From Rhodospirillales bacterium (GTDB lineage: Bacteria > Pseudomonadota > Alphaproteobacteria > Acetobacterales > Acetobacteraceae): DNA of 46,505 bases. The notes under the pieces were generated by a model. It ran no database searches, had not been told where the DNA came from, and saw only the letters and a list, made by a program, of their open reading frames with translations. Location: assembly GCA_018971565.1 (NCBI GenBank), contig JAGXAO010000005.1:1-46505 (forward strand), in the 5' to 3' direction. Numbering within the stretch: position 1 is the first letter of the stretch; the number at the start of each line of letters is the position of its first letter. A program made the position numbers and the translations under genes. Shown piece after piece: positions 23,350-33,884 of the stretch.

Positions 23350-25629
23350 ATGAACGATTCACCGCATAACCCGGAGCCTGGACTGGGCACAGATCAGGCC
23401 TCGGCCAACCCTGATGTAGCTTATCTGAGGGACGCGCAACTTGGTTTAAGGCCGCAATGCGAGGCGCGTTTAGCCGCACTTCTGAATGTTGCTCGCTATC
23501 ACGGCGTAGAAATGAATTTAGAGGCCCTCCGCCTCAGGCCAGGGGAGCACGCCCCCAATCCCCCTGAGCTCATTGCCTGGCTACAGGAGGCCGGGCTTTG
23601 GTCCCGCGGGGTGCATATGAATTTTCGGCAACTCGTGAATATCGATGCGCCGGCACCAATCGTTCTTTTATTAGACGACGGTGGCGCGGCACTTCTGGTC
23701 GGCCGAGACAAGGGAAGAAACCTTCTGGTAATTAGAGACCCTCGTCAATCAGGATCTGCATCGCCTGTGCTTGTCGACGAACTCAGGCTCAAACAAGTTT
23801 GGAGCGGAGCTTGCCTGCTTATACGCGCCAGCCGGCACGGCACAATTGAAGAGCAGCCCTTCAATTTAAGTCTCGTGGCAAGATTGGTTTGGGGTGACCG
23901 CAAAATTTTACGGGATATTGGCATTACTTCAGTAACCCTGACAGCCTTGAGTCTGATTCCGATTCTTGTGGTAATGCAAACGATTGGCAAAGTCTTACAA
24001 TATCACAGCGTCGACACACTAAACTTGGTTATTATCCTTCTTTGTGTCGCAATTTTTTTCGAAGCCATTCTCACGTGGAGTCGAAAAATCATGGAGGTGG
24101 TGCTGGCGGCAAAGCTAGATGCAAGACTCAACTTGATGATTTTTGATAGGCTGGTTGCCCTCCCGATAGATTATTTCGAACGTGAACAAGCCGGCCAGAT
24201 CACGCATAAAATTTCGCAAGTAAACCGCGTGCGGCAGTTCCTGACCGGCAAATTGATGAATGCCTTCATCGATATCTTCATGTTAACTTTGCTGCTTCCT
24301 ATTTTGTTTTACATGAATGCCGCATTAGCGTGGACAGTATTGATTGCTGCCGCCCTTATCGCCGCCATAATCGCAATCTTCTTGAAGCCAATCGCGATCA
24401 TGACCGGCAAGATAATCATGGCTGAATCGGCAAAAGGTTCAATTCTTGTCGAAACCATATTCGGAATCAGAACTGTCAAGGCTCTGGCGCTTGAAAATAC
24501 CCGCGCTGCCCAGTGGGACCGCAGAGTTGCTGAAGTAGCGGAACTACATGTCGAAGAAAGCAGGCTCGCGAATTGGCCCATGACGCTTACGCTCCCGCTT
24601 CAGCGATACTGCAGCTACGGAGTTATCGTCGTCGGCGCTTTCATCGCATTGCACAGCAAATCGTCGGTCGATTCCTCAAGTTTGTTTGGATTTATGATGC
24701 TAGGCGGGCGCGTCGCTGGTCCTTTGGTCAGTCTTGCTGGGCTTCTGGAAGAGGTGCAAGAGGCAAAGGCATCAATTGGAATGGTTGGCGATGTTCTCAA
24801 TCGGACAAATGAGCGCCATGCCCTTACAAATGGATTGCGCCCGCGGTTTGAGGGTAGCGTCGAATTTAATGATGTTACCTTTCGCTATGAGGGAACAAAA
24901 ACGCCTGCCCTCGATAAGATGAGTTTTAAAATTCCCGCCGGCACGATGCTGGGATTGGTAGGGCGCTCCGGGTCAGGCAAGTCTACCGTAACACGGTTGC
25001 TACAAGGCATTAATCGTGATTATAGCGGCTCAATCCGCATTGACGGCACCGACATGCGGGAAATTAATTTACGCCACATCCGCAAAAATTTTGGCATGGT
25101 TCTGCAAGACAATTTCCTGTTTCGTGGAAGCGTCCGGGATAATATTATTGCTGGCCGGCCAGGCTTGTCGTTTGAAGATGCCGTAAGAGCTGCCCGGCTT
25201 GCCGGAGCCGAGGAGTTTATTGAGCGTTTACCGAACGGCTATGATACTTTCATCCAGGAAGGCTCGCCTAATCTTTCCGGCGGACAAAAACAGCGTCTCG
25301 CGATTGCGCGTGCATTGATTTCTGATCCCAAAATTCTAATTTTGGATGAAGCCACAAGTGCACTTGACCCCGAAAGCGAAGCGTTAGTTAACGCCAATAT
25401 CAAACGAATCGCCGCAGGCCGGACCATGGTGATCGTTTCACATCGCCTTTCTTCGCTTCTCGATTGTAATTTGATCATGGTGCTCGACCGAGGTTGCACA
25501 ATCGATATCGGTACACACCATGAATTAGTGGAGCGTTGTGCAATCTATCGCCATCTTTGGTTCCAGCAAAACCGCCACCTTTCTCCTGAAGGGTTTGACG
25601 ATGCTTCGTCTCAAACAGCCATTGTTTAA
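23350..25629 (+). CDS. Type I secretion ABC transporter/permease (HlyB/RtxB-like) with degenerate C39-like N-terminal domain
   Basis: N-terminal AALLNVARYHGVEMNLEALRLRPGE (C39-like, no catalytic Cys), TM domain, Walker A GLVGRSGSGKST, signature LSGGQKQRLAIARAL, Walker B ILILDEATSALD, H-loop IVSHRLSSL. Confidence 0.92.
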   Translation: MNDSPHNPEPGLGTDQASANPDVAYLRDAQLGLRPQCEARLAALLNVARYHGVEMNLEALRLRPGEHAPNPPELIAWLQEAGLWSRGVHMNFRQLVNIDAPAPIVLLLDDGGAALLVGRDKGRNLLVIRDPRQSGSASPVLVDELRLKQVWSGACLLIRASRHGTIEEQPFNLSLVARLVWGDRKILRDIGITSVTLTALSLIPILVVMQTIGKVLQYHSVDTLNLVIILLCVAIFFEAILTWSRKIMEVVLAAKLDARLNLMIFDRLVALPIDYFEREQAGQITHKISQVNRVRQFLTGKLMNAFIDIFMLTLLLPILFYMNAALAWTVLIAAALIAAIIAIFLKPIAIMTGKIIMAESAKGSILVETIFGIRTVKALALENTRAAQWDRRVAEVAELHVEESRLANWPMTLTLPLQRYCSYGVIVVGAFIALHSKSSVDSSSLFGFMMLGGRVAGPLVSLAGLLEEVQEAKASIGMVGDVLNRTNERHALTNGLRPRFEGSVEFNDVTFRYEGTKTPALDKMSFKIPAGTMLGLVGRSGSGKSTVTRLLQGINRDYSGSIRIDGTDMREINLRHIRKNFGMVLQDNFLFRGSVRDNIIAGRPGLSFEDAVRAARLAGAEEFIERLPNGYDTFIQEGSPNLSGGQKQRLAIARALISDPKILILDEATSALDPESEALVNANIKRIAAGRTMVIVSHRLSSLLDCNLIMVLDRGCTIDIGTHHELVERCAIYRHLWFQQNRHLSPEGFDDASSQTAIV

Positions 25630-27019
25630 TATCGCAAAAAGCAAATCCGTGCATACGGATATTGATAGCGCCTTGCCATTGGCTGTTCTGGAATTCCAGT
25701 CGCCAACAGCTGCTGTTATCGCGACACCTCTTCCTGGTATTACCCGGTCAACAAGCTATATCTTAAGCGCGCTTGTCTTGAGCTTACTGCTCATTGCAGC
25801 GATTTTTAAGGTAGACAAACTGGTGGCGGCAACAGGCGTTCTGAATTCGGTAACGCCGGATATCAGCGTTCAGGCATTTAATGCTGGTTCTATCGTTCGT
25901 GACATCAAAGTACAACCGGGTGATTTTGTTGCAAAAGGCCAACTTCTGGCAACTCTCGATCCAACCTATACATCGGCAGATCTAAAAGCTCTTACCTTAC
26001 AAGAACAGAACTATTCAGCACAGGTTGCACAGTTACAAGCACAAGAGAACGACACGCCATACACACCAGATCCATCAAATCCCGCGTCGGCTTTGATGCT
26101 GCAAACATACGACCAGCAAGTTGGGCAATATCACTATACACTGGAAAATTACGATCAGCAGATAAGCCAGTTAAAAACCCAAATCGAAGGCTACAACCAA
26201 CAGGCGGATTATTATCGTCAGCGGCTGCAAATTGCTACAAATGTCGAAGATATGCGCAAGAAGCTGCAAAAACTTCAGGTCGGCAGCCAGCTCGATTCCG
26301 AAGCAGCAACGGATGAGCGTGTTAGCGTACAGGCTCAGCTTGCTTCCGCTATCTCTGAGGCTGATGCTGATAAGAGACAGCTTGCCTCAGTACAGGCGCA
26401 ACGAGACAGTTTCTCTCAACAGTTCAAAGCAACGACTTCAACTGATCTGGCTACAGCCTTGAACAATTTGGCACAGGCCAGGCAAGAACTTTCCAAGGCG
26501 CAGTTTAACAACAACCTTGTGGATTTGCAGGCGCCACAGGACGCAGTTATTCAAAGCGTTGCCCCTGTCTCAGTTGGGTCTGTGCTACAAGCTGGGCAGC
26601 AGCTTATGGAACTGGCTCCCGTCAATGCACCTTTTGTTGTTGAAGCCGACCTGCTGGCCAGTGAATCTGGCTTCGTTCATGTAGGAGACAAGGTAACTAT
26701 AAAATTTGCCACGCTGGATCCATTACAATACGGCTCGGCAAAAGGAACCGTTACCTCGATAAGTCCCGAAAGCATCAACCCTCAAGATCAACAGAATTCC
26801 GTTGCGATGGGAGCGCCTTTGCCTACAGCTCCTCAAACTCTATATTTTAAAGTACGAATCTCCTTTGACGTAATGAACCTCCATAACGTGCCTGCCGGCT
26901 TCCGTTTGGTGCCTGGTATGCCGATCGAAGCAGATATAATTGTAGGAAAGCATTCAATTCTTTCTTACTTCCTATCGCGCATGACCCCTGTTGCATACGA
27001 GAGCCTACATGAGCCCTGA
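25601..27019 (+). CDS. HlyD family type I secretion membrane fusion protein
   Basis: One N-terminal TM, GSIVRDIKVQPGDFVAKGQLLATLDPTYTSADLKAL (lipoyl-like), coiled coil, C-terminal GMPIEADIIVGKHSILSYFLSRMTPVAYESLHEP; start set at MLRLKQP overlapping the upstream gene. Confidence 0.9.
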   Translation: MLRLKQPLFNIAKSKSVHTDIDSALPLAVLEFQSPTAAVIATPLPGITRSTSYILSALVLSLLLIAAIFKVDKLVAATGVLNSVTPDISVQAFNAGSIVRDIKVQPGDFVAKGQLLATLDPTYTSADLKALTLQEQNYSAQVAQLQAQENDTPYTPDPSNPASALMLQTYDQQVGQYHYTLENYDQQISQLKTQIEGYNQQADYYRQRLQIATNVEDMRKKLQKLQVGSQLDSEAATDERVSVQAQLASAISEADADKRQLASVQAQRDSFSQQFKATTSTDLATALNNLAQARQELSKAQFNNNLVDLQAPQDAVIQSVAPVSVGSVLQAGQQLMELAPVNAPFVVEADLLASESGFVHVGDKVTIKFATLDPLQYGSAKGTVTSISPESINPQDQQNSVAMGAPLPTAPQTLYFKVRISFDVMNLHNVPAGFRLVPGMPIEADIIVGKHSILSYFLSRMTPVAYESLHEP

Positions 27020-27024
27020 CAACT

Positions 27025-28791
27025 ATGTCTGCTAAGCTCTCTCTCAGTGATAAATTTGCTGCGCGAAGCCATCAGAAAGCTTTGCTTCGCGCCCGTGAAT
27101 TGGCGGCCCAAGCAGAGCATGGGCGAGCATTTAAACTTTATGCCGTTGCCGCGGAGGCGGGAGTGGCAGAAGCCGAGCGCGAGCTTGGCTTATATTATAT
27201 TCATGGAAATGCAGATAATTTTCGCAGTGCGGTTGAGGCTGCTCGCTGGCTAACACTGGCCGCTGAAAAAGGTGATATTCAAGCTCAAAGCGCTTTGGGC
27301 GGATTATACGCACACGGGTTTAACGAAGGTGCCGCAAATGATCTATTTGGCGAGGCAAAGCAGGGCCAACCGAACCTTGAAGCCGCTCTAAAATGGACGC
27401 TGGCTGCCGCCGAAGCGGGTGATGTTAATTCACAGGCTCTCGCTGGTTTTTTGTTTGCAACCGGGCCTCAAGAAATTCAAAACATAGAGCGCGCCAAATA
27501 TTGGTACCAGCTTGCAGCTAAAGCTGAAAAGGCTCAAGGCCATTTAGGTTTGGGAACCTTGCTGCTACTTGAGGCAACAACGGATGAATTAACCTTTACT
27601 GCTGTTGCACATATTCGCGCGGCCGCTGATGCCGGCCTGGCGATGGGTCATTATTTTCTTGGCCTCGTGTACGAGCGAGCAATTGGCGTTCATGCCGACG
27701 CTAAACTTGCGGCTTACCATTATCAGTTTGCAGCGGAAAAAGGTGTCCGCAGTGCTCAATTTCGTTATGGAGTCATGCTCTATAATGGGGTTGGCGTTTC
27801 CAAAAACAAAACCGAGGGAGAAACCTGGCTTCGCCGAGCCGCGGTTGCCGGTGAGAGTGAGGCCGCGGCACTCGTGGGCGAGATATATGCCCGTGGTGAC
27901 GACGGCTTGCCACCAAACTACGCTGAAGCGGCTTTGTGGTTTCGCGCTGCTGCCGATTCTGGCCATCGTTCTTCGGCGCGCGCGTTAGGGCTGCTATATC
28001 TAACAGGTGCAGGCTCTGGCGCAATTCCACGAGACCCAGATGAAGCTGCTAAATGGCTGCGAATTGCAGCAGAACAGGGCGACAGTATCGCACAGGCAGA
28101 TCTTGCCGGTTTGCTACTCAAACGCCAGACAAATTTAAGATTTACTGAACCAGCGCCTGTACATGAATGGTTTGAACAAGCCGCAGAATCGGGCGATGCG
28201 ATCGGCGCGTATAATTTTGCAGTTTGCTTAATGGAAGGTATCGGCATGGACCGCGACGAAGCGCGCGCGGCCCGCTGGTTCCGTAAGGCGGCCGAAAATG
28301 TCGTCAATGCCCAATATCGCTACGGCCGGATGCTCGCAGAAGGCCAAGGCGTTGAGCAAAACTTTGAAGAAGCGAGGCATTGGCTACAAGAAGCCGCCAA
28401 CAAGAATATGCTTGAAGCTCTTCTGGACCTCGCCGCCCTTAAAATACAGGGATTGGGTGGCCCCCGCGAGGACGCTGAAGCCCGGGACCTTTTTGAACGA
28501 GCCGCCGCCCAGGGAAATGCCAATGCGATGTTCGCCCTGGGAGCACTCTATGGAGGCGGCCATGAAATTGAGACTGATCGCTCAAAATCACTGGAATGGT
28601 ACCGCAAAGCAGCAAGTTTGAAGCATCCGCGTGCCGCGCTTATGCTTGGAAAATATTTATGCGCGGGAATAGCCACAACCCAAGATATTGAAGAAGCCAA
28701 AAAATGGTTTGCAGTTGCGGCCACGGCGGGCTTACCAGAAGCGGCAACTGAACTGGAAACGCTTACACCCTCCACGGCAGCAACTGAGTAG
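27025..28791 (+). CDS. Sel1-like repeat (SLR/TPR-like) protein
   Basis: Many about 36-aa repeats, e.g. AARWLTLAAEKGDIQAQSALGGLYAHG, AKYWYQLAAKAEKAQGHLGLGTL, EAAKWLRIAAEQGDSIAQADLAGLL, SLEWYRKAASLKHPRAALMLGKYL. Confidence 0.92.
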   Translation: MSAKLSLSDKFAARSHQKALLRARELAAQAEHGRAFKLYAVAAEAGVAEAERELGLYYIHGNADNFRSAVEAARWLTLAAEKGDIQAQSALGGLYAHGFNEGAANDLFGEAKQGQPNLEAALKWTLAAAEAGDVNSQALAGFLFATGPQEIQNIERAKYWYQLAAKAEKAQGHLGLGTLLLLEATTDELTFTAVAHIRAAADAGLAMGHYFLGLVYERAIGVHADAKLAAYHYQFAAEKGVRSAQFRYGVMLYNGVGVSKNKTEGETWLRRAAVAGESEAAALVGEIYARGDDGLPPNYAEAALWFRAAADSGHRSSARALGLLYLTGAGSGAIPRDPDEAAKWLRIAAEQGDSIAQADLAGLLLKRQTNLRFTEPAPVHEWFEQAAESGDAIGAYNFAVCLMEGIGMDRDEARAARWFRKAAENVVNAQYRYGRMLAEGQGVEQNFEEARHWLQEAANKNMLEALLDLAALKIQGLGGPREDAEARDLFERAAAQGNANAMFALGALYGGGHEIETDRSKSLEWYRKAASLKHPRAALMLGKYLCAGIATTQDIEEAKKWFAVAATAGLPEAATELETLTPSTAATE

Positions 28792-28809: not shown

Positions 28810-31539
28810 TTGGCAAAATCGTCGGATGACCCCAGCACAGCGACCGCAGCTTATTTAAGAGGTGTGCAGAATGGTCCTAACGCATTATTCTGGCTAAATC
28901 GGGCACGCAGGCTTGCGCCGAATGACCCAAGAATTGAACTGGAAATTGCGCGGCAGGAATTATCTGCAGGTCTGCCACGCGCAAAGCTCGCACATGCGGC
29001 ATTTCTGCGATTAGCCGAACAATATGACATTGCTCCCGCATGGATTGGTGCTGCCGTTGCCGCCCAGGTTTTGGGAGATGCCGCAGCCAGCGCGCGAGCT
29101 TTGGAGGCATTACTCAACCGCCATTGTATACCGGATGAAAAAAGCTTTTCTGCATTTGCGCAGCATATCGCTATCGCGGCTGGCTATAATGGCTATCAGG
29201 GCTATAACGCCGCAGGAGAATTGGTTAGCACAGGGTCTGGTCGGCTCCTGGGAGCCAATCTAAACCATCAGGCCATTCTACGCATAGAAGGCATGGTGGA
29301 ATACAAGGCTGGCGGTTTAAGCGGCTGGGCGGTACGTCCCGCCTCGCCCGATCAGCCTCCTTGCCTAACGTTAAGGGACTCACTAGGCCGCTCGTTCATC
29401 GTCAAATGCACCACCCTTCTTCCAGCAGATACTTCCAACCCGCTTTTACCTCGCTATAAATTTCGCGTACCTCTTTCAAGGATAAACGGCCTCCTTCCGC
29501 CCTTTATTCTGTCTGGTTCAGGGGGCAGCCAGCTTATGGGCTCACCCATAGATCCGAATCAGATACAATGTTTACCCGTCGGCGCCTCTTCTAGAGGGAG
29601 ACCTCCCGAAGTCATTCCGAAATCCGCGCCGCTTGTGCTGGTTATGCCTGTTTATGGCGGCGTTAGAGAAACTCAGGTGGCCATTCGTTCAGTCCTCAAG
29701 GCTGCTCCACCAGGCATCAGGTTCGTTGTGGTAAACGATGCATCTCCGGAACATGTACTTAACAAGTGGCTTACAAAGCTAGCCGCCGAGCGCAAGATCG
29801 AATTGTTTCAGCACGCTCAAAATCTCGGCTTTTGTGCCGCAGCCAACACTGGCTTTGCCGAAGCAATCGGGTGTGATGTGCTTTTGCTTAACAGTGACAT
29901 TCTCATGCCCGCCGGTGCAATCGAGGCTTTGAACCGAACTGCCTATTCCGACCCCGCGATCGGGACAGTAACTCCATTTTCGAATGAAGCAACAATTTGC
30001 AGCTATCCAGATGTTTATTCTGGAAACGTAATGCCAGATTTGATAACAACAAATCTATTCAACCACCTGGCTGCAACAGCCAATCACGCAGCACGCGTTG
30101 AAATTCCAACTGGCGTTGGTTTCTGTATGTATATCCGGCACGACTGTCTATCCGCGACAGGAAATTTTCGAGCAGAAGTTTTTGCGCAAGGATACGGCGA
30201 AGAAAATGATTTTTGTATCCGCGCACGCCATCTTGGCTACAAGCACGTAGCCGCCATGGATGCATACGTTGCTCATCAGGGTGGCGTGTCATTTAAAAGC
30301 TCTACGAAGGCATTGGTTAGCCGGAATTCAAAGCTACTAAATCAATTCTATCCCGGCTATAATGACTTAATAAAAGAGTACGTAAAGAAGGATCCGGCGG
30401 CTCCATTCAGAACCGCGCTAGATGAAGCCAGGCTACGCCATATTCAGAAGGGCAAAAAATCTGTTCTGTTTATTAGTCATGCACATGGCGGTGGAGTTAC
30501 AAAATATGTCGATCAAGAAATTTCAAATGCTCGCGATAAAGGATTAAACCCCTTACTTCTGACAACTGAATTTCCAAAAGATACCAGCAAGGCACCATAC
30601 CCGTGGCCTTCCCTATTATGCGCCGGGAACCCCAAAGATTACCCCAACCTTACATTTATAATGCCGCGGGATTTGACAGCCTTGCTTTGCCTATTACGAC
30701 AGCTCAATGTTGTGCGCGTTGAGCTGCATCATATGCTGGGTCAACACAAGGTAATCCGCGGCATTTCCGAGGCTCTCAATGTTCCGCAGCGCATAACGAT
30801 TCACGATTATGCCAGCTTCTGCCCACGGGTTAATCTCTTAAATCGGCCGGAACCATCCGCACCTCTCCGGTATTGCGGTGAACCTGATATCGCCGGATGC
30901 GAACGATGCTGCTCTCAAGAAAAAGAGGGGGTTTTTGAACCACTTCCCATTAAAGCCCTTCTCGCGCGTTCACAGAGAGAATTAAAGTCGGCGGATCGCA
31001 TAACCGTCCCTTCTGAGGATGTCGCGCGACGCCTTACCCGGCATTTTCCTTCTATTTCTGTAAATCTAATGCCGTGGGAATTAGATTCCGAATCCGTAAC
31101 ATTAAAAGCACCTCGCTCCGGGAAACGGCGTATCGCAGTAATTGGCGGAATTGGGCCCCAGAAGGGTTTTGATGTTCTACTTGATTGTGCGAACGATATT
31201 AAAAGAAGATGTCTGCCGCTGGAATTCGTTGTAATCGGAAACAGCGCCGACGATGCTCTGCTTCTGGAGGCTGGGATTTTTGTTAGCGGCGCCTACAAAG
31301 CTGACGAGATTCATAATTTAATCATCGAATCTCAAGCTGACCTTGCATTCGTTCCATCAATTTGCCCCGAAACTTGGTGTTTTGTATTGTCCGAAGCCTG
31401 GCAAGCGGGGTTATACACTGTTGCTTTCGACCTGGGTGCACAGGCTGAACGTATCCGCGCAACTGGCCGTGGCGCAATTTTGCCTCTGGGTCTTCCTCCT
31501 GAGCGTATTAACAATTCCCTAATGAGCATCACGTTTTGA
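28810..31539 (+). CDS. Multidomain glycosyltransferase: TPR-like N-terminus, GT2 domain, GT4-like C-terminal domain
   Basis: TPR-like helices in the first ~120 aa; GT2 LVLVMPVYGGVRETQVAIRSVL...FVVVNDASPEHVL...NLGFCAAANTGFAEA...VLLLNSDILMPAGAIEAL; GT4-like LFISHAHGGGVTKYVDQ...IAVIGGIGPQKGFDVLLDCA...CPETWCFVLSEAWQAG. Confidence 0.85.
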   Translation: MAKSSDDPSTATAAYLRGVQNGPNALFWLNRARRLAPNDPRIELEIARQELSAGLPRAKLAHAAFLRLAEQYDIAPAWIGAAVAAQVLGDAAASARALEALLNRHCIPDEKSFSAFAQHIAIAAGYNGYQGYNAAGELVSTGSGRLLGANLNHQAILRIEGMVEYKAGGLSGWAVRPASPDQPPCLTLRDSLGRSFIVKCTTLLPADTSNPLLPRYKFRVPLSRINGLLPPFILSGSGGSQLMGSPIDPNQIQCLPVGASSRGRPPEVIPKSAPLVLVMPVYGGVRETQVAIRSVLKAAPPGIRFVVVNDASPEHVLNKWLTKLAAERKIELFQHAQNLGFCAAANTGFAEAIGCDVLLLNSDILMPAGAIEALNRTAYSDPAIGTVTPFSNEATICSYPDVYSGNVMPDLITTNLFNHLAATANHAARVEIPTGVGFCMYIRHDCLSATGNFRAEVFAQGYGEENDFCIRARHLGYKHVAAMDAYVAHQGGVSFKSSTKALVSRNSKLLNQFYPGYNDLIKEYVKKDPAAPFRTALDEARLRHIQKGKKSVLFISHAHGGGVTKYVDQEISNARDKGLNPLLLTTEFPKDTSKAPYPWPSLLCAGNPKDYPNLTFIMPRDLTALLCLLRQLNVVRVELHHMLGQHKVIRGISEALNVPQRITIHDYASFCPRVNLLNRPEPSAPLRYCGEPDIAGCERCCSQEKEGVFEPLPIKALLARSQRELKSADRITVPSEDVARRLTRHFPSISVNLMPWELDSESVTLKAPRSGKRRIAVIGGIGPQKGFDVLLDCANDIKRRCLPLEFVVIGNSADDALLLEAGIFVSGAYKADEIHNLIIESQADLAFVPSICPETWCFVLSEAWQAGLYTVAFDLGAQAERIRATGRGAILPLGLPPERINNSLMSITF

Positions 31540-31665: not shown

Positions 31666-32589
31666 ATGGCCGCTGTTAAAACTGCTTCTGCCCAGCCCAA
31701 GAAAGCACCGGTTGTTGAGCCAGCGAATCATGGCACTTCGGAAAAATTTGGAGCACAGGTTCAGGAGCTGAAGGTTACAGGGCACTTGATGGCTCTTCCC
31801 CCGGGCCTGTTTTGCTTTGTGAATGAGCTTAATGCCGGCGCCGGGATGCATAATGGTATGCCTGGCGTTCGCGTTTCTCCCCCCCCCATTGGCGGTCAAA
31901 ATGTTGAAATCTCCGGTTTTCGCTCTGATGGCTGGCTAAGCGCTGAAGGCGACGCCGTACTTGTGCGCATAAAAAACCAACCGGCTCAGGTTCTTGTAAC
32001 CATTTATCAACTCGCCAACATGCCAGATTCTTCGCCCCGGTTACAGGTCCGGCAGTTGTTGGGTGAAGCTCATATCGCCTCCAACGGTGCTCCAGCTGCG
32101 GCCGCCACGCCTGAACGCCCTGCCGCACCTGAAAGCCCCGCAGATATTACGGCTCACATTCAATCTCGTGGAGACGTCGGCATTAAATTTGGCGAGTGGA
32201 TGGGTGAAAAAGGCAGCCAAAACTGGATTGAGGGGTTTGCAATTCATGCCCCTGATGGGATCGCGCCTGCAGAGTTAACCTATCAGGCCGTTCTCGGCAG
32301 AGGGTGGCTATCCCCTTGGGTAGATGCCGGTCAATATTGCGGCTCGCGCGGTATGGCCTTGCCTCTCCTAGGGCTTCGCGTCCGCTTAAGCGGCGGTGCC
32401 GCAGAACAATATGATATCAGCTACGCCGCGACCTTCATTGGCGGTGCAAGTAGCGGCCCGGTAGGTAATGATGAAACTTGCGAAGCGGAAAACCTGGCGC
32501 CACTTGAATCTTTTCAAATTATCCTCACGCCTCGCGGCCGAAAAGGCACAAAGCCAAAAGGCAAAGGGGCGGAACCGAGGGCACTGTGA
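31666..32589 (+). CDS. Uncharacterised protein with ChW-like (clostridial hydrophobic W repeat) C-terminal half
   Basis: 307-aa ORF starting ATG; LTYQAVLGRGWLSPWVDAGQYCGSRGMALPLLGLRVRLSGGAAEQYDISYAATFIGG resembles ChW repeats (Y..H..n.GW..wv..G...Gt.g..lr.EalrI.L...YdI.Y); no signal peptide seen; 4-nt overlap with the next GT gene. Confidence 0.6.
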   Translation: MAAVKTASAQPKKAPVVEPANHGTSEKFGAQVQELKVTGHLMALPPGLFCFVNELNAGAGMHNGMPGVRVSPPPIGGQNVEISGFRSDGWLSAEGDAVLVRIKNQPAQVLVTIYQLANMPDSSPRLQVRQLLGEAHIASNGAPAAAATPERPAAPESPADITAHIQSRGDVGIKFGEWMGEKGSQNWIEGFAIHAPDGIAPAELTYQAVLGRGWLSPWVDAGQYCGSRGMALPLLGLRVRLSGGAAEQYDISYAATFIGGASSGPVGNDETCEAENLAPLESFQIILTPRGRKGTKPKGKGAEPRAL

Positions 32590-33884
32590 ACTTTCTGTTC
32601 GTTCACCAGAACTTTCCTGGGCAATATGTTCATCTTCTGCGGAGCCTGCTGGCTGACAATTTGGCGCGGCCAGGCACGCACGAAATTGTGTTTATGACGG
32701 AGCCAAACCAAAATTATATGGATGGCGTCCGCAAGGTGACTTATTCCCGCCCCCCGCCGGCTCCAAAAGCGCTGGCACCCGCGGCATGGGAATTTGAGAG
32801 CGCGGCGCTGCGCGCCCAGGCTGGATACCAGGGCGCACAACAAATTAAGGCTCTGGGTTTTAAACCTGACATCATCATCGGTCATCACGGCTGGGGAGAG
32901 ATGTTGAATTTGTGTGATGTGTTTCCTGGCGTACCCATTCTTGGCTATTTTGAATTTTACTACAGAATTTATAATTCAGACGTAAATTTTGACCCTGAAT
33001 TTCAGATGGATGAACCACGCTTCGGCGCGGTTCGCGCCAAAAATACAATCAATCTTTTGGCAGTAGCCCTTGAGCAGTGGGGACAGACCCCCACGCACTG
33101 GCAGTATGCAACCTATCCAGGTTGGGCAAAGGATAAGATTCGCATTATTGAGGAAGGCGTAAACCTTGAGCAGTGCGCGCCAGAACCGGCACTGCGCAAG
33201 AAAAAAATTACCGTTGGCCCTTTAACGGTTACGCCTAAACAAAAATTGCTAACATTCGTTTCACGTAACCTGGAGCCCTATCGGGGCTTCCACACATTAA
33301 TGCGCGCCCTGCCAAAAATTCTCGATGAATGTCCAAATCTTGTTGTTTCAATCGTCGGGGGCGATGAAGTCAGCTACGGCGCTCCACCACCTAACGGCGG
33401 CAGTTGGAAGAACGTGTTCTTAAAGGAGGTTGAAGGTCGAATTGATCTTTCTCGTGTTCATTTCATGGGAAAAGTTAAATATCAAGATCATCTGACTCTA
33501 TTGAAAAGATCGGATGCTCATATCTATCTAAGCTATCCGTTCGTGGCTTCGTGGTCGCTGAGAGAAGCGTTAGCATGTGGCTGCGTTATTATCGGGGCCG
33601 ACAGCACAACGGTAACGGAATTTATAAAGGATGGTGTAAACGGGCTGATTACACCCACCCTCGACTCAAACAAATTGGCTGATAATGCATTAAGGGTTCT
33701 GGGTGACAGTACCCTATCCGCTAAACTGCGCCTGGGGGCTCGGGAATATGCCGAAAAACATCTGAGCATGGAAAATTATCTTCATAGATATCGCGCCTAT
33801 ATTGAAGAAATCGTTGGCCAGCCGCTCATTAAAGCTCTTCCGGGAACGCCCGCAAAAAAATCACGCTCCCAGGCCCGCGCCTAA
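32586..33884 (+). CDS. Glycosyltransferase family 4 protein (Glyco_trans_4-type N-terminus)
   Basis: MNFLFVHQNFPGQYVHLLRSL N-terminus; LTFVSRNLEPYRGFHTLMRALPKIL; VHFMGKVKYQDHLTLLKRSDAHIYLSYPFVASWSLREALACGCVIIGADS. Confidence 0.9.
   Translation: MNFLFVHQNFPGQYVHLLRSLLADNLARPGTHEIVFMTEPNQNYMDGVRKVTYSRPPPAPKALAPAAWEFESAALRAQAGYQGAQQIKALGFKPDIIIGHHGWGEMLNLCDVFPGVPILGYFEFYYRIYNSDVNFDPEFQMDEPRFGAVRAKNTINLLAVALEQWGQTPTHWQYATYPGWAKDKIRIIEEGVNLEQCAPEPALRKKKITVGPLTVTPKQKLLTFVSRNLEPYRGFHTLMRALPKILDECPNLVVSIVGGDEVSYGAPPPNGGSWKNVFLKEVEGRIDLSRVHFMGKVKYQDHLTLLKRSDAHIYLSYPFVASWSLREALACGCVIIGADSTTVTEFIKDGVNGLITPTLDSNKLADNALRVLGDSTLSAKLRLGAREYAEKHLSMENYLHRYRAYIEEIVGQPLIKALPGTPAKKSRSQARA

Follow-up and report, generated by a model that had tools for sequence, protein, structure and literature searches.

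Here, we show that the open reading frame at positions 31666–32589 (+) is, by its sequence profile, a genuine ChW protein gene, and that it is genetically linked to glycosyltransferases (GTs) through in-frame fusions and a conserved neighbourhood. The gene lies in the window, the whole 46,505-nucleotide stretch of Acetobacteraceae DNA analysed in this study, which stems from contig C141 of a 2.16 Mb assembly. We lean towards the view that the 307-residue ChW protein works inside the cell together with the flanking glycosyltransferases, where it would bind a glycan or an acceptor.

The ChW profile (PF07538) matches residues 213–243 (32302–32394) with 24.3 bits in the Pfam scan of the window, against a cut-off of 22, and scores 27.8 bits in the genome search. 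The pattern of spaced tryptophan, glycine and hydrophobic residues that the earlier note had read as a divergent ChW domain is real, and that reading is borne out both by the Pfam score and by alignment with a ChW triplet from Nostoc. Residues 162–290 form a three-repeat ChW module, hereafter the C-module, composed of repeat 1 (residues 162–197, 32149–32256 (+), AHIQSRGDV...WIEGFAIHAPD), repeat 2 (residues 204–243, 32275–32394 (+), YQAVLGRGWLSPW...CGSRGMALPLLGLRVRL) and repeat 3 (residues 249–290, 32410–32535 (+), YAATF...DETCEAENLAPLESFQIILTPR). Repeat 2 is the one unit that Pfam reports in this protein. The three units, cut from an alignment of 27 copies of the C-terminal module (A3), were compared profile against profile with hhalign, using 200 column shuffles as the null. 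Repeats 1 and 2 align at 83% with a score of 23.1 (null maximum 12.6) and repeats 2 and 3 at 92% with a score of 28.5 (null maximum 16.3), and in both comparisons none of the 200 shuffles reaches the score; the likeness between repeats 1 and 3 is weak (2 of 200 shuffles).

A clear ChW protein of 183 residues from Nostoc UHCC 0302 (L123), reached through a tblastn match, contains three repeats, seen as three Pfam ChW stretches (96.4 bits), and shows 28% identity over 114 residues. The A3 alignment matches it end to end over 134 columns (hhalign, 98.2% probability, E 4.9e-14), with repeat 1 in register. Given the repeat profiles and this triplet alignment, the flanking stretches that had been described as partial units correspond to repeats 1 and 3, although the first of them begins earlier (AHIQ..., residue 162) than had been quoted. 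Profile support for at least two repeat units, which the same note had asked for as a check, comes from the two comparisons that exceed all shuffles and from the Nostoc triplet, whereas Pfam calls a single unit. The GW dipeptide is found only in repeat 2 (residues 213–214), its place being taken by GD in repeat 1 and GG in repeat 3; because the Nostoc triplet likewise reads GD, the dipeptide seems to be dispensable in some ChW units. Unlike the window protein, the Nostoc protein opens with a signal of the export type (MPRRDFFVKGGLALTGLALP...), and no GT is annotated next to its gene. Another cyanobacterial three-repeat ChW protein is ChwA of Phormidium lacuna (PMC8794177). Several ChW-like repeats (RLEAIQIKL, GWLGWAKNGEEAGTAG) were also observed in a 980-residue protein on a human-faecal contig filed as phage (MT837030.1; L125:2-2944).

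The gene has an ATG start, encodes the free-standing form of the protein, and has orthologues at 55–86% identity in 11 other loci of Acidocella and related MAGs, and is thus a real gene. These relatives mark the source organism as Acidocella-like within the Acetobacteraceae. Upstream of the repeats lies a beta-rich N-terminal domain (residues 34–134, 31765–32067 (+)) with conserved LPPGLFC, DGWL and VTIYQ motifs, for which no family was found and which is all-beta in the AF2 model. PF07538 is the only Pfam match of the protein, and NCBIfam and PADLOC models give none. AF2 models built from 12 sequences are nearly all beta and of modest confidence, with a pLDDT of 65 for the whole protein and 75 for the C-module. 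A PDB sequence search with two profiles returned weak matches, none of them significant, and Foldseek on two AF2 models gave no significant match in the PDB and matched no solved glycan-binding fold; its best match, 4lr4 (E 5.6e-3, probability 0.47), was set aside as non-significant.

The distribution of the family ties it closely to one type of glycosyltransferase. The PF07538 search has matches in 90 of 150 Acetobacteraceae genomes and in none of the 14 controls, and a full-profile search finds the ChW family in 104 of the 150 (72 of 102 genera), almost always as one full-length copy per genome; across a sample of the phylum (n = 399), only Acetobacteraceae pass the Pfam ChW search. A gene for a bimodular GT2+GT4 enzyme is present in 102 of the 150 genomes. 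Counting strong ChW hits (n = 103), 99 genomes carry both genes, 44 carry neither and 7 are discordant (Fisher p 1.5e-29, a value that overstates the evidence as the genomes are related and shared ancestry is ignored). The pattern is clear despite this kinship. The GT2+GT4 gene lies immediately upstream of the ChW gene on the same strand in 91 of the 103, with a median gap of 147 bases between the matched stretches, and two GT-ChW pairs occur in one genome (G018; contigs C53 and C127). The genome of the window also encodes a second GT2+GT4 paralogue of 1050 residues (L117:7587-10739 (-), G000:C7), which is 35% identical to the window enzyme over the GT part and ends lysine-rich. As no ChW partner was found beside this paralogue, the ChW protein does not seem to be required by every GT2+GT4 enzyme.

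In the window, the ChW gene is part of a run of genes on one strand in the order HlyB, HlyD, Sel1, GT2+GT4, ChW, GT4, in agreement with the type I secretion and glycosyltransferase cluster that had been described earlier. The run opens with a type I secretion-like ABC transporter of the HlyB type with a C39-like N-terminus (23350–25629 (+)), which has Pfam ABC domains and scores 504 bits against TIGR01846, under the curated cut-off of 726. An HlyD-type periplasmic adaptor follows (25538–27019 (+), TIGR01843, 311 bits); since the listed frame overlaps hlyB by 92 bases, its true start is probably later. Next come a Sel1-repeat protein with 11 matched stretches (27025–28791 (+), PF08238), the bimodular GT2+GT4 glycosyltransferase (28810–31539 (+), PF00535 and PF00534) and, beyond the ChW gene, a GT4 glycosyltransferase (32586–33884 (+), PF12000 and PF00534), the start of which overlaps the ChW stop by 4 bases. 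Among 32 loci, HlyD was recovered in 29, GT2+GT4 in 29 and GT4 in 27; these counts miss some genes that the open reading frame filter conceals where loci are GC-rich, and the shorter loci stop before hlyB. The C39-like N-terminal domain of the transporter (23350–23830) scores 21.9 bits, just below the Pfam cut-off, and is probably inactive, as an early cysteine, judged by eye, is off the usual catalytic spacing. The N-terminal ~270 residues of the GT2+GT4 enzyme (28810–29600) match no Pfam family; the relatives in Azospirillum and in genome G423 have TPR-like repeats there.

In other lineages, the two neighbours are a single protein. Outside the Acetobacteraceae, the whole ChW protein is continuous with the GT2+GT4 C-terminus in L059 (1324 residues, ChW 21.5 bits, just under the cut-off) and L060 (1197 residues, 30.9 bits), and in both of these fused forms the N-terminal domain of residues 34–134 can be aligned as well. 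On Azospirillum plasmids, the C-module is contained within RefSeq genes named glycosyltransferase, of 1380–1396 residues in the two that were scanned, with ChW scores of 29.2 bits in A. argentinense and 18.7 bits, below the cut-off, in A. brasilense Sp7; two further Azospirillum records have the same layout, and a methyltransferase and a GT4 lie downstream of the Azospirillum fusion. In Bradyrhizobium sp. 155, a free-standing ChW relative, itself without a Pfam match, is followed by a GT2 gene after a one-base gap. The C-module also occurs by itself within the Acetobacteraceae, on GT61 proteins (L088, L090, L091 and L093) and GT90 proteins (L089, L094 and L106), and it is found on SAM methyltransferases (L095 scores above the cut-off, and L104 and others show a weaker likeness). 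Its position on these proteins is usually C-terminal; L091 carries two tandem copies, and in L088 the module sits between the GT61 and GT2 domains. Because the module recurs on such unlike glycan enzymes, a shared substrate or partner is to be expected.

Where does the ChW protein reside? A signal-like hydrophobic N-terminus was not found in the window protein or its Acidocella relatives, in line with the absence of a Sec signal noticed before, and the higher N-terminal hydrophobicity of some rows arises where the start of the conserved N-terminal domain falls within the first 40 residues. RTX nonapeptide repeats were not found either (no PF00353 match at E ≤ 1). With the in-frame fusions to GT2+GT4 in Azospirillum and two other alphaproteobacterial genomes, these results speak against the idea of an adhesion module exported by the type I system, which the earlier note had preferred, and the fusion of the same protein to the transferase favours the alternative it had mentioned, a cytoplasmic partner of the GTs. 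The note's reading as a probable binding module is plausible. We infer a cytoplasmic location and a physical complex. The protein ends in a basic tail (residues 291–307, 32536–32586 (+)) with a net charge of +5; in alignment A2, the tail is net positive (+1 to +16) in all 27 free-standing rows, and its charge is 0 and -5 in the two fused rows. Judging by this charge pattern, the tail may replace the covalent link to the transferase, possibly by docking to a partner or to the membrane.

Non-catalytic carbohydrate-binding modules sit on glycan-active enzymes. Like them, the ChW C-module is a small, mobile, all-beta unit carried by a range of glycan enzymes; neither by sequence nor by fold was it matched to a known carbohydrate-binding module, and its binding is putative. 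In the mechanism that we propose, the ChW protein would stay in the cytoplasm as an accessory subunit of a complex that builds glycans and includes the upstream GT2+GT4 enzyme; the downstream GT4 is probably part of the same complex. The ChW triplet would act in the manner of a carbohydrate-binding module, binding the growing glycan or a glycan-bearing acceptor and presenting it to the transferases, as a separate chain in the Acetobacteraceae and as a covalent part of the transferase in Azospirillum and others. The type I system would then export the glycan product or its protein acceptor. A glycan ligand seems the simplest common property, since a phage endolysin has a ChW domain that attaches to the cell wall of L. 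lactis (PMC6700490).

Protein binding by the ChW module would give the same data as glycan binding. Pure docking is the main rival. The module would in that case bring together glycosyltransferases and methyltransferases that serve a single surface-glycan pathway, for instance via the Sel1-repeat protein. That the module is found on catalytically different enzymes (GT2, GT4, GT61, GT90 and methyltransferase) which could share a scaffold, that the Sel1-repeat protein is a conserved neighbour, and that ChW repeats were first predicted to serve in surface anchoring or protein-protein interaction (PMC5817068) all agree with docking. Most genomes, however, have only one ChW protein, so that a second ChW-bearing enzyme for it to gather is often lacking, and the endolysin ChW region anchors to a cell wall; we regard docking as somewhat unlikely. 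Secretion of the ChW protein by the neighbouring type I system, so that it anchors to or decorates the cell surface, would fit its place in one run of same-strand genes with HlyB and HlyD, in a conserved block, as well as the extracellular nature of canonical ChW proteins. Yet ChW is fused to glycosyltransferases elsewhere, the protein is devoid of RTX repeats and has a K/R-rich tail, and no type I transporter genes are annotated in the Azospirillum stretches examined, in a gene table that is incomplete. Of all the readings we rank secretion as an adhesin lowest, and consider it improbable.

Could the exported acceptor be an RTX protein? In a narrower form of the intracellular reading, the ChW protein, the glycosyltransferases and the type I system would form one glycosylation and export unit, in which ChW recognises an RTX-type acceptor before export. 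Such an acceptor is suggested by the RTX-type or 'calcium-binding protein' genes that adjoin the GT-ChW gene in four Azospirillum records and in G423, and the free ChW relative in G417. In each of these Azospirillum records, a 'calcium-binding protein' gene directly precedes the fusion (L124:3997-5025, L119:4096-5064, L126:4080-5099 and L127:4066-5100), and RTX repeats were confirmed in the one that was scanned. RTX-like proteins of ~450 residues, as a rule unlinked to the locus, are moreover present in many ChW-carrying Acetobacteraceae. On the other hand, no RTX protein was found at the thresholds used in the genome of the window (90% complete) or in two further genomes from the same genus, and RTX and ChW are not associated across the 150 genomes (63/40/35/12, p = 0.14), so that RTX as an obligate partner of ChW within the Acetobacteraceae is unsupported. 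A shared RTX C-terminus was discounted as a special link, as it may be typical of RTX proteins at large, and the N-termini show no match. In the Acetobacteraceae stretches, scanning by composition turned up no exported glycine-rich proteins beside the locus. Altogether, we consider the RTX form unlikely.

The RTX-like family itself (L128-L151, e.g. L135:646-2067 (-)) comprises proteins of mostly ~400–500 residues, in which the N-terminus is conserved and reads roughly VTV.GASG..V.VTVDG and the C-terminus is of the RTX type; it is a possible type I substrate. Its genes are usually unlinked to the locus; in G134, one lies ~7 kb from the ChW gene.

How does the locus relate to known systems? By profile, the window protein belongs to the same repeat family as the ChW proteins of Clostridium, Lactococcus, Enterococcus and phage endolysins (PF07538/SM00728) and has the same grouping in threes, ChW repeats having been noted as triplets (PMC5817068). 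The Gram-positive and phage proteins are extracellular, either wall-associated or endolysins, whereas the window protein is without a signal peptide and its module is joined to glycosyltransferases elsewhere. The literature treats ChW as a repeat for surface anchoring (PMC5817068, PMC8051824, PMC6700490); its structure and ligand are given as 'n.d.' or unknown (PMC5817068), and its function is described as still unknown (PMC8051824). The cluster shares HlyB and HlyD with RTX/type I secretion clusters, and differs from these in that no RTX substrate was found in the genome of the window at the thresholds used. To our knowledge, such clusters do not ordinarily include glycosyltransferases or ChW proteins.

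More broadly, and tentatively, the ChW triplet may be a general intracellular recognition module for glycan assembly in Alphaproteobacteria, serving GT2/GT4, GT61 and GT90 enzymes and methyltransferases, with the wall-anchoring ChW of Gram-positives as the same glycan-binding module outside the cell. In the literature searched on ChW/PF07538 with glycosyltransferases and on type I secretion in Acetobacteraceae, we found no prior description of a ChW-GT link or of this locus.

In conclusion, the ChW-GT pair marks a surface-glycan locus that is widespread in the Acetobacteraceae and usually present as a single copy. The joining of ChW to specific classes of glycosyltransferase provides a concrete and testable ligand hypothesis for a domain that was named long ago.
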